From Clostridiales bacterium (GTDB lineage Bacteria > Bacillota > Clostridia > Lachnospirales > JAQSXR01): DNA of 37,901 bases. Made by a program: the position numbers and the translations under genes. The notes below the pieces were generated by a model. The model ran no database searches. It saw only the letters and a program-made list of their open reading frames with translations, and was not told the DNA's origin. The stretch is from NCBI GenBank assembly GCA_029256575.1, contig JAQSXR010000042.1, positions 1 through 37,901 on the forward strand, in the 5' to 3' direction. Shown piece by piece: positions 3,103-6,725 of the stretch; within the stretch, counting starts at the first letter, position 1; each line of letters begins with the position of its first letter.

Positions 3103-3996
3103 ATGAAACTATTTATGCCTCATCGGGTAATTTTTGAACCTGCAAGTCTAGAATATCCATTAGGGAAAGAGATATTTGAATATTTTAAAGACAAACCAGT
3201 AGAAATAATAAATACCTCAGCTAGAAATACAGCGCGCTATATACCAGGATCGACCAATGCCGAAAAGTATGTTAAAGGAACGAAGCCATATTTAAAAATC
3301 TTTGTAAATCTTGATGATACATTTAACGTTATAAAAGACCATATCAAACAGAATGATGACAAAATTACTACTTTTGAGGCTGCTAGTTTAGGAGATCCGT
3401 TGGCTTTAGAGCACATTACAGGAAGCCTTGCAAAGACCATAGAGTTTTTCGCTAATCTTGAAAAAGGAAGACTTAGAGTAGTGACAAAATATGAAAATGT
3501 GAATTCGCTCTTAGATCTAAATCATAATCAACATACCCACTTTCGCATCAGTATAAATACTAATTATATAATAGATAATTTTGAACACAATACGGGAAGC
3601 CTAGACGAGAGGATTGAGGCAATCATGAAACTAAGCAAGGCTGGTTATCCCATTGGTTTTATAGTTGCACCAATCATGCAATATGAGAATTGGAAAGAAG
3701 AGTATAATTTGCTTTTTGAAAAATTAAACAATAGTTTGGGGCCTGAACTTAGTCGAAAAGAACTAACATTTGAACTGATACAACATCGATTTACAGCAGT
3801 TGCAAAAGAGCTTATTCTTGAAAGATTTCCTAATACGAAGCTGGATATGGATGAAGAAAATAGAAGTTTAAAATGGGGTAGATTTGGAAGATATAAATAC
3901 GTATACCACAAAGAGCAAGCGGAAGAAATCAAGAATTATCTAACATCACTTATATCAGATAGATTTATTAACGCTAATATTAAGTATTTTACTTAG
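3103..3996 (+). CDS. Spore photoproduct lyase-like protein lacking the Fe-S cysteine loop
   Basis: 297 aa, collinear with SplB at both ends: FEPASLEYPLGKEI and IPG at the N-terminus, then TKPYLKIFVN, VTKYENVNSLLDLNHN, FRISINTNYIIDNFE, KAGYPIGFIVAPI, FELIQHRFT, KLDMDEENRSLKWGRFGRYKYVY and NANIKYFT. Normal SplB (about 340 aa) repairs the thymine spore photoproduct with a radical-SAM [4Fe-4S] cluster held by CX3CX2C. Here IPGSTNAEKYVK (residues 47-58) runs straight into GTKPY, so about 45 residues including all three cluster cysteines are missing. The protein has no cysteine anywhere, and EAAS stands where B. subtilis SplB has its H-donor Cys141. Reading frame is intact, and GGAAAGGGTG precedes the ATG. 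It cannot do radical-SAM chemistry. It is either a recent deletion mutant or a lesion-binding paralogue. Confidence 0.85.
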   Translation: MKLFMPHRVIFEPASLEYPLGKEIFEYFKDKPVEIINTSARNTARYIPGSTNAEKYVKGTKPYLKIFVNLDDTFNVIKDHIKQNDDKITTFEAASLGDPLALEHITGSLAKTIEFFANLEKGRLRVVTKYENVNSLLDLNHNQHTHFRISINTNYIIDNFEHNTGSLDERIEAIMKLSKAGYPIGFIVAPIMQYENWKEEYNLLFEKLNNSLGPELSRKELTFELIQHRFTAVAKELILERFPNTKLDMDEENRSLKWGRFGRYKYVYHKEQAEEIKNYLTSLISDRFINANIKYFT

Positions 3997-4017
3997 CAAT
4001 TTTAAATAACATACTAA

Positions 4018-4131
4018 ATAAGATTTCTATATAGCGGTAGCATTGTCCTACTAGAATTAAGTGCAGGTACAAAAGAAATAGAAGTATCGACACTTGATTT
4101 AGGTGGATTAGCAATATATAATTATAAATAA
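4018..4131 (+). pseudogene. C-terminal gene remnant
   Basis: An open frame without a start codon (upstream stop at 4015-4017) reads IRFLYSGSIVLLELSAGTKE and then EVSTLDLGGLAIYNYK before TAA at 4129-4131. The alternating strand pattern and the LDLGG segment look like the end of a beta-sandwich module, such as an accessory domain of a secreted or carbohydrate-active protein. The family is not identified. No ribosome site or start is present, so I take it as a leftover of a gene whose front was deleted. Confidence 0.4.
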
Positions 4132-4167
4132 ATAGTACAAAGATGCGAAAAAAGAGGAGAACAAAGT

Positions 4168-5133
4168 ATGATCAGAGGGATAGAAATAGGTAATATGCAA
4201 GATACAGATATCGGGGAAGCAAAACAAATCTGGGTAAGACAATATGAACTACACTGCAATCAAAAAGATTTTCCAACCTATTGGAAGGAAGACACTTCAT
4301 TATTAGAGGGTTTTCTTAGTGATAAGGTAAAAGATGAAAAAGCAATTGTTGCGAAGCTAGGGGGTAAGGTAGTGGGCTTCTTGGCTTTTGATGAGTTTCC
4401 TTTTAATGGGGAAGATTCTGTATTCTGCCCAGCAATCGGGCATTCTGCTGTTGAAGAATACAAAGAAAGTGTATATTTAGAGTTGTATAAAAGTATTTCA
4501 CAAAAATGGGTTAATAGAAATATTTTCAACCATATGTGGACCATATTTATCAATGACGAAAAACTGAAAAAAATACTATTTGATCTTGGGTATGGATCTT
4601 ATTTAATCGATGCATTTACTAATTGCCATAATAACTATAGTAGAGAATTGAGGAATAATGATATCCGACAAGCTACCATCATAGATAAGGAAGCTTTACA
4701 TTCACTTGTAATTGAATCGAATGAATATTACGCTACTGCTCCTTTATTTCTAAAGAGAGAAGAGGTATCAGGTGAGGAGATAGAAGAACTTATACGAAAG
4801 AAAAATGTGTTAATCGCTATGGATCAAGAAAAACCAATAGGATTTCTTAACATAAGCATATGTAATGAAAATGATTTTATAAATTTAACTACAGAAGGTA
4901 ATGGGTTACTTGATGAAATAGGTATATTTATAAAACCTGAGTATAGAAATAAGGATATTGGATTAGGATTATTAATGAAAGCAATGGATTATTGCAAACA
5001 ACTTGAAACAAAATACATACACGTAGATTTTGAAACAGCAAACTTATATGCTAATAAATTTTGGATAAAGTATTTTAGTCCTATGTTATTGTCTATGAGA
5101 AGAACTATTAATAAAAACATAAATGACAAGTAA
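4168..5133 (+). CDS. Tandem GNAT N-acetyltransferase
   Basis: 321 aa with two GNAT-like halves. The N-terminal half (about 1-160) has IVAKLGGKVVGFLAFDEF and a degenerate core. The C-terminal half (about 165-310) carries VLIAMDQEKPIGFLNISI and a motif A, IGIFIKPEYRNKDIGLGLLMKAM, where RNKDIGLG would bind the acetyl-CoA pyrophosphate. Such proteins acetylate amino groups of small molecules or proteins, and the substrate is unknown. GAGGAGA precedes the ATG at 4168. Only the C-terminal domain appears able to bind acetyl-CoA. Confidence 0.8.
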   Translation: MIRGIEIGNMQDTDIGEAKQIWVRQYELHCNQKDFPTYWKEDTSLLEGFLSDKVKDEKAIVAKLGGKVVGFLAFDEFPFNGEDSVFCPAIGHSAVEEYKESVYLELYKSISQKWVNRNIFNHMWTIFINDEKLKKILFDLGYGSYLIDAFTNCHNNYSRELRNNDIRQATIIDKEALHSLVIESNEYYATAPLFLKREEVSGEEIEELIRKKNVLIAMDQEKPIGFLNISICNENDFINLTTEGNGLLDEIGIFIKPEYRNKDIGLGLLMKAMDYCKQLETKYIHVDFETANLYANKFWIKYFSPMLLSMRRTINKNINDK

Positions 5134-5768: not shown

Positions 5769-6725
5769 TTAATTTGAATTGATATCTACCTTTACCGGAA
5801 TAATGATTTCATTAATTCTTGATCCATCTTTTGCACTGGTTTCGTAAATAATAATGGTTCCCGTATCATTTGTTACTTTGTCAAACTCGATTATTATCTC
5901 GAATTCGCCCCAACCTGGAGCACCTTCAGAAGCCATTACGTAACCGGAAGCCAATACATTGTGCCCATCCTCAAATTCCCAATTTAATGAGGCTTCAAAT
6001 ACTCTAGCTACGCCTTTTACCACAATTCGATTTCCTACAATAGCATCTGGTGCTGGTTCAAAAATACGAAACGCAACGTTTTGTACTACGATATCACTTT
6101 TTTCCATATCTTCTAGCCAAGTATAATCCGAAGGATCATTCGCAGTGATTGGATCTGCAATATATAAGTGACCTAATAAAGATTCTTCTATTTGACCTTC
6201 GATTAATAATTGAGTCTGGTCGAAACCAAATTGCTGCATAATCATTGAGACTTGTTCAATTAACAACAATTCTCCAGTAGAGCCTAAGTTGCTCTCTTTA
6301 ATTTCCTTTGAGAAACTAACATGAGCAATGCCATCTACATCTTCCACATATTCTATAATTACATTGGGTTTCACTAAATTAGTCAATCCTTCATTTTCAG
6401 TACCTCTAACCCAAGCTTCTAGGGCTGCTTTGGGCAAGCTTTCATATGAATCAGCCTCGATTACTTGCTTAACGCGGTAAGTACTTATTAAATCACTATC
6501 AGGGAAATAAAGAACAACTTCTTGAGTTATTTTGTCATTAGTTGGTGAAGGGGATAGGTCCCCTTCATCAACGGTATTTTGATTGTTGTCTTCTGGATTA
6601 GAGTTATTTGTTTCTATAATAACCCCATTTTTATCAATATCTTGAATTGTTGTATCCTTTTTCCCGCAAGCAAATAAGCTCATACTTATTACTGAAATCA
6701 ATATCAATGCTATTATTTTTTTCAT
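5769..6725 (-). CDS. GerMN and Gmad2 domain lipoprotein
   Basis: 318 aa. The N-terminus is a lipoprotein signal, MKKIIALILISVISMSLFAC, with lipobox SLFAC placing the lipidated Cys at 20. An Asn/Asp/Ser-rich linker runs to about residue 65. A GerMN domain follows (VVLYFPDSD...YRVKQVIEADSYESLPKAALEAW...VSFSKEI...QQFGFDQTQLLIEGQ, about 70-195), then an Ig-like Gmad2 domain (VQNVAFRIFEPAPDAIVGNRIVVKG...GEFEIIIEF...ETSAKDGSRINEIIIPV, about 212-318). This arrangement is typical of clostridial surface lipoproteins related to germination protein GerM. It lies downstream of the sensor kinase on the same strand, with its own GGAGG site and a TATAAT-like box at 6852-6857, so it may be a target or partner of the two-component system. 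Confidence 0.88.
   Translation of the reverse strand: MKKIIALILISVISMSLFACGKKDTTIQDIDKNGVIIETNNSNPEDNNQNTVDEGDLSPSPTNDKITQEVVLYFPDSDLISTYRVKQVIEADSYESLPKAALEAWVRGTENEGLTNLVKPNVIIEYVEDVDGIAHVSFSKEIKESNLGSTGELLLIEQVSMIMQQFGFDQTQLLIEGQIEESLLGHLYIADPITANDPSDYTWLEDMEKSDIVVQNVAFRIFEPAPDAIVGNRIVVKGVARVFEASLNWEFEDGHNVLASGYVMASEGAPGWGEFEIIIEFDKVTNDTGTIIIYETSAKDGSRINEIIIPVKVDINSN

Follow-up and report, generated by a model that had tools for sequence, protein, structure and literature searches.

The spore photoproduct lyase (SPL) gene of a Clostridiales bacterium lacks 135 bp in frame, and most probably a recent deletion has killed a once functional Clostridium-type SPL, leaving an early pseudogene in a spore former. 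The gene lies in a stretch of 37,901 nucleotides (contig JAQSXR010000042.1), here called the window, in which it comprises the following features:

3103..3996, + strand: SPL gene, internally deleted (PF20903 356.9 bits; TIGR04070 377.2 bits, cut-off 400)
3112..3273, + strand: N-terminal SPL part, profile positions 1-54 (42.6 bits)
3274..3279, + strand: deletion junction, KYVK codons joined to GTKPY codons, with 135 bp missing relative to residues 59-103 of the intact homologue L023
3277..3993, + strand: C-terminal SPL part, profile positions 101-338, conserved blocks all retained

The reading frame begins with ATG and stays open across 297 codons, and the encoded protein contains no cysteine. 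PF20903 (338 positions) covers the protein in two collinear stretches within one frame, 1-54 and 101-338, while positions 55-100 are missing. The score lies far above the family cut-off of 27 bits and identifies the product as an SPL homologue. In contrast, the TIGR04070 score falls below the cut-off of this equivalog model, which stands for the functional enzyme, the radical SAM family PF04055 reaches only 15.4 bits (cut-off 29.5), and the CX3CX2C motif that binds the [4Fe-4S] cluster is absent. We then aligned the protein with SplB homologues, as the initial annotation had proposed. Compared with L023 (from a Tissierellia MAG), G435 (= L073) and G1160 (= L121), exactly 45 residues between KYVK and GTKPY are missing, corresponding to the difference between the 342 aa of intact relatives and the 297 aa of the window protein. 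That annotation had described a cysteine-free SPL homologue, collinear on both flanks, from which about 45 residues before GTKPY including CX3CX2C had been cut out, with the later blocks kept and the frame open; all of this was borne out. Against SPL crystal-structure chains the protein aligns only at residues 29-89 and 130-368. The missing part thus corresponds to chain residues 90-129 of the Geobacillus enzyme, or approximately 63-102 in native numbering (via an offset of 27, derived from the position of C140S in the printed alignment).

In L023, the two borders of the DNA equivalent to the deleted segment read AACTCTAAAAGAACC and ACACAGGGAGCTAAA, and the window junction reads AAAGGAACGAAG, in which no long repeat is visible. 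The short GGA repeat at which the initial annotation had placed the deletion is a putative origin that only the ancestral DNA would reveal. The gap could be an assembly error or a minority variant, the true chromosome having a full SPL gene. The assembly is indeed a 3.1 Mb draft in 64 contigs, 95.3% complete and with 1.4% contamination, and the genus is represented by a single assembly in the genome set. However, no repeat at the junction is long enough to collapse an assembly, an error would need to be exactly in frame, and the missing segment was not found elsewhere in the assembly. We regard this explanation as unlikely. Highly improbable is a cluster segment supplied in trans or rejoined at the DNA or RNA level, as with a split gene or programmed excision: the in-frame junction is all that accords with it, but the 45-aa segment had no match anywhere in the genome at E<=10 (a weak test with so short a query), and no mobile element or recombinase was seen adjoining the SPL gene. 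Upstream of the gene there is no full-consensus sigma-G promoter site (best 10/12), and intact L023 is no better, which makes this comparison uninformative.

The lost segment can be compared with two biochemically described enzymes. The B. subtilis enzyme binds its cluster through C91, C95 and C98, relays the radical via the tyrosines Y97 and Y99, and uses C141 as H donor (PMC3742179). SPL of C. acetobutylicum has a conserved cysteine, C74, on the opposite side of the pocket (PMC5368176). PDB entry 4rh0 is titled as a C140A/S76C mutant of the Geobacillus enzyme, and we read S76C as placing a cysteine at the site matching C74. The intact relatives of the window SPL are of the C74 type, with Cys at residue 76 of L023 (VCKPSAD), and at the C141 position they have Ser (FEVASLGD in L023, FEAASSGD in L024, FEAASLGD in G435). 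The Ser that had initially been noted at this position in the window protein is therefore present but is not damage, since the intact relatives are C74 type with the same Ser; a C141-to-Ser lesion was ruled out. The first of the initially offered alternatives, loss of the catalytic centre through an in-frame deletion, finds support with one correction: the lost H donor is the C74-type cysteine and not C141. Because the protein belongs to the C74-type subgroup, every residue of the radical chemistry named in the two studies falls within the deleted 45 residues: CX3CX2C, both relay tyrosines (in the deleted CEYCY segment) and the C74-type H-donor cysteine. Judged from the radical-SAM fold, the segment should also hold the first barrel strand and the cluster loop. 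Having lost the [4Fe-4S] cysteines, the tyrosines and the H donor, the product would be unable to cleave SAM or to repair spore photoproduct.

A second intact splB, which the initial annotation had suggested looking for, was not found: across the 3.1-Mb assembly PF20903 matches the window locus only. The catalytic residues are thus gone from a genome without another SPL copy, as expected of a pseudogene. The same genome encodes Spo0A and has two strong and one weaker match to alpha/beta SASPs, and the window itself adds to the spore-former context:

5769..6725, - strand: Germane/Gmad2 spore-germination-type protein

It is very probable that the source organism sporulates and that spore photoproduct would form in it; as SASPs and Spo0A are encoded, the SPL substrate should still arise. 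In C. difficile, delta-spl spores show an approximately 10-fold lower UV survival (PMC8452069), and SPL is therefore useful but not essential. This also weighs against an early pseudogene, because SPL benefits SASP-bearing spores and its loss is not obviously free.

If the gapped protein belonged to a lesion-binding, non-catalytic SPL subfamily, as had been offered as an alternative, other members should share the gap. With PF20903 we searched about 1,700 genomes from three ranks of the window's lineage (order, class and phylum), from the family and order to which G435 belongs, and from the class that includes a Bacillus-type genome. Among the hundreds of high-scoring SPL matches listed from these genomes, none lacked profile positions 55-100 or had a span too short by 135 bp; for the phylum and Bacilli samples these were the best matches, which do not include all low-scoring copies. 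A scan of genome contigs likewise revealed no SPL with the same gap. Plasmid and phage collections yielded distant or ordinary SPL relatives only and no close relative, and viral contigs gave no match. CX3CX2C was kept in 104 of the 105 full-length SPL frames from retrieved loci, a few of which repeat one gene. The window was the sole exception, and with the motif present in all 104 other frames (104/104) its loss here is far from chance. A non-catalytic subfamily is thus without support, and the literature searched, mainly titles and abstracts, contained nothing matching on SPL pseudogenes or radical-SAM pseudoenzymes. In the window's order and class, most of the genomes sampled had no high-scoring SPL.

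Apart from the deletion, the gene carries no sign of decay. Among 55 positions invariant in 14 homologues, none is changed in the window SPL. Its branch in the tree is not lengthened (0.124 versus 0.211 for the neighbour L023), and a branch codon model gave an omega of 0.055 on this branch versus 0.061 elsewhere (2dlnL 0.05). The dN/dS analysis proposed at the outset therefore returned a low value, but one that is not assignable to the time after the deletion. With synonymous sites saturated along these branches, the test has power only against a long neutral phase. The fit worsened by 1.16 lnL units when such a phase of 0.033 per site was added to the window branch and by 2.6 when it was 0.05, and a phase above about 0.04 per site (about 4% drift since the deletion) was rejected at 2 lnL units. 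Relaxed selection left no signal on the window branch, where drift would have to exceed about 0.04 per site to be detectable. Of neutral point changes in the gene, 5.3% would create a stop; after 0.03 changes per site the frame would still be free of stops with a probability of 0.24, or 0.02 assuming one indel per ten substitutions. The gene would thus be either recently inactivated or still selected, and these data fit both; an open 297-codon frame without later damage would be equally expected under selection.

Selection could act on a retained non-catalytic pseudoenzyme that would attach to spore photoproduct or to DNA coated with SASPs through its C-terminal part and flag the lesion for excision repair. 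The open frame, the unchanged invariant sites, the low omega and the complete C-terminal part are consistent with such a protein, and the best structure matches of its AlphaFold model are SPL crystal structures. However, it is a single case among the SPLs listed from about 1,700 genomes, and the low omega also covers the long branch before the deletion. Mean pLDDT was 71.6 for the AlphaFold2 model of the deleted protein and 68.9 for that of intact L023, both built on shallow alignments. In the window model it drops below 50 around the junction (positions 40-67), with intact L023 no better in the corresponding junction and active-site region. With such middling confidence, the models do not tell whether the deleted protein folds stably. 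We consider a pseudoenzyme of this kind improbable, and likewise its more specific form, in which a cluster-free SPL is kept as a lesion-binding factor that steers another repair route to spore photoproduct during germination. Recent inactivation is favoured instead, because the gap is unique and SPL decay is recurrent.

This recurrence was seen in related Clostridia. In G435, genes for an EAL-domain response regulator and for a DtxR-like regulator flank the intact SPL gene, and two FeoA-like genes lie further out (names from reading translations, not from a family search). At the same locus, two genomes of its genus, G733 and G462, have a 75-aa ORF matching residues 274-342 only, the N-terminal ~270 codons being lost:

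2687-2914: G733 SPL stub (L111), 75 aa, C-terminal part
2103-2330: G462 SPL stub (L112), 75 aa, C-terminal part

The stubs of these two congeneric species are almost identical, and a stub common to two species is not a sequencing error. Elsewhere, frameshifts split the SPL gene (G573, G628, G426 and G520, the last also reaching a contig end) or stops interrupt it (G605 and G455); C-terminal pieces at contig ends in G545 and G1150 were left out of this count. Some of these lesions could be sequencing errors of draft genomes. SPL loss is thus recurrent in Clostridia and differs in form.

Two further loci were observed. On the - strand of G707 C3 (L119), a C-terminal SPL fragment (residues 255-342) and an intact SPL lie about 2 kb apart (1172-1435 and 3491-4510), and the fragment is probably a remnant of a second copy. 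The SPL at G1161 C168:5961-7055 (L142/L143) has an intact CX3CX2C but also, ahead of the RITTFEVASLGD block, an in-frame insertion of about 30 residues in the region of NSQNSIANESNILTDTEGNINTNSLQTQ.

The relationships of the window SPL cross taxonomic orders. Its nearest intact homologues, L023 and G435, are 66% identical to it, and G1160 groups with G435 in the tree. It is nearer to these SPLs of another order (L023, L073, L121; 66%) than to the compared SPLs of its own order (approximately 36-54%), and gene neighbours differ. Either horizontal transfer or differential loss may account for this grouping.

For recent inactivation, the following course of events is proposed. A functional C74-type SPL would have lost 135 bp in frame, and with them all three cysteines that bind the [4Fe-4S] cluster, both relay tyrosines and the H-donor cysteine. 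The resulting protein would neither cleave SAM nor repair spore photoproduct. The allele would be recent, with further damage not yet gathered, and the spore former, perhaps under a relaxed need for SPL, would then depend on other repair for spore photoproduct. If the loss is true, the strain represents a clean natural SPL knock-out in a spore former still encoding SASPs, and one of several cases of repeated clostridial SPL loss. If the protein were functional without its cluster, it would be a first case of a radical-SAM pseudoenzyme taking part in the repair of spore DNA, none having been found in the literature searched.

Compared with known systems, the window protein finds its best sequence and fold matches in the Geobacillus thermodenitrificans SPL structures (4fhc-4fhg, 4rh0), which possess the cluster-binding segment that it lacks. 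Another close counterpart is the Clostridium-type SPL (TIGR04070/PF20903, C. acetobutylicum C74). With this type, including L023 and G435, it is collinear on both flanks and shares the Ser at the C141 position, but it differs in lacking the 45 residues with CX3CX2C, the relay tyrosines and the C74-type cysteine that intact relatives have, and in scoring 377 bits against the equivalog cut-off of 400. The clostridial SPL pseudogenes and stubs (G733, G462, G605, G573, G628, G426, G455, G520) are likewise inactivated, each by its own lesion. Whereas these have stops, frameshifts or the loss of ~270 N-terminal codons, the window lesion is internal and in frame, with nothing else damaged. The window gene thus looks like one of many independent SPL losses rather than a new protein family.
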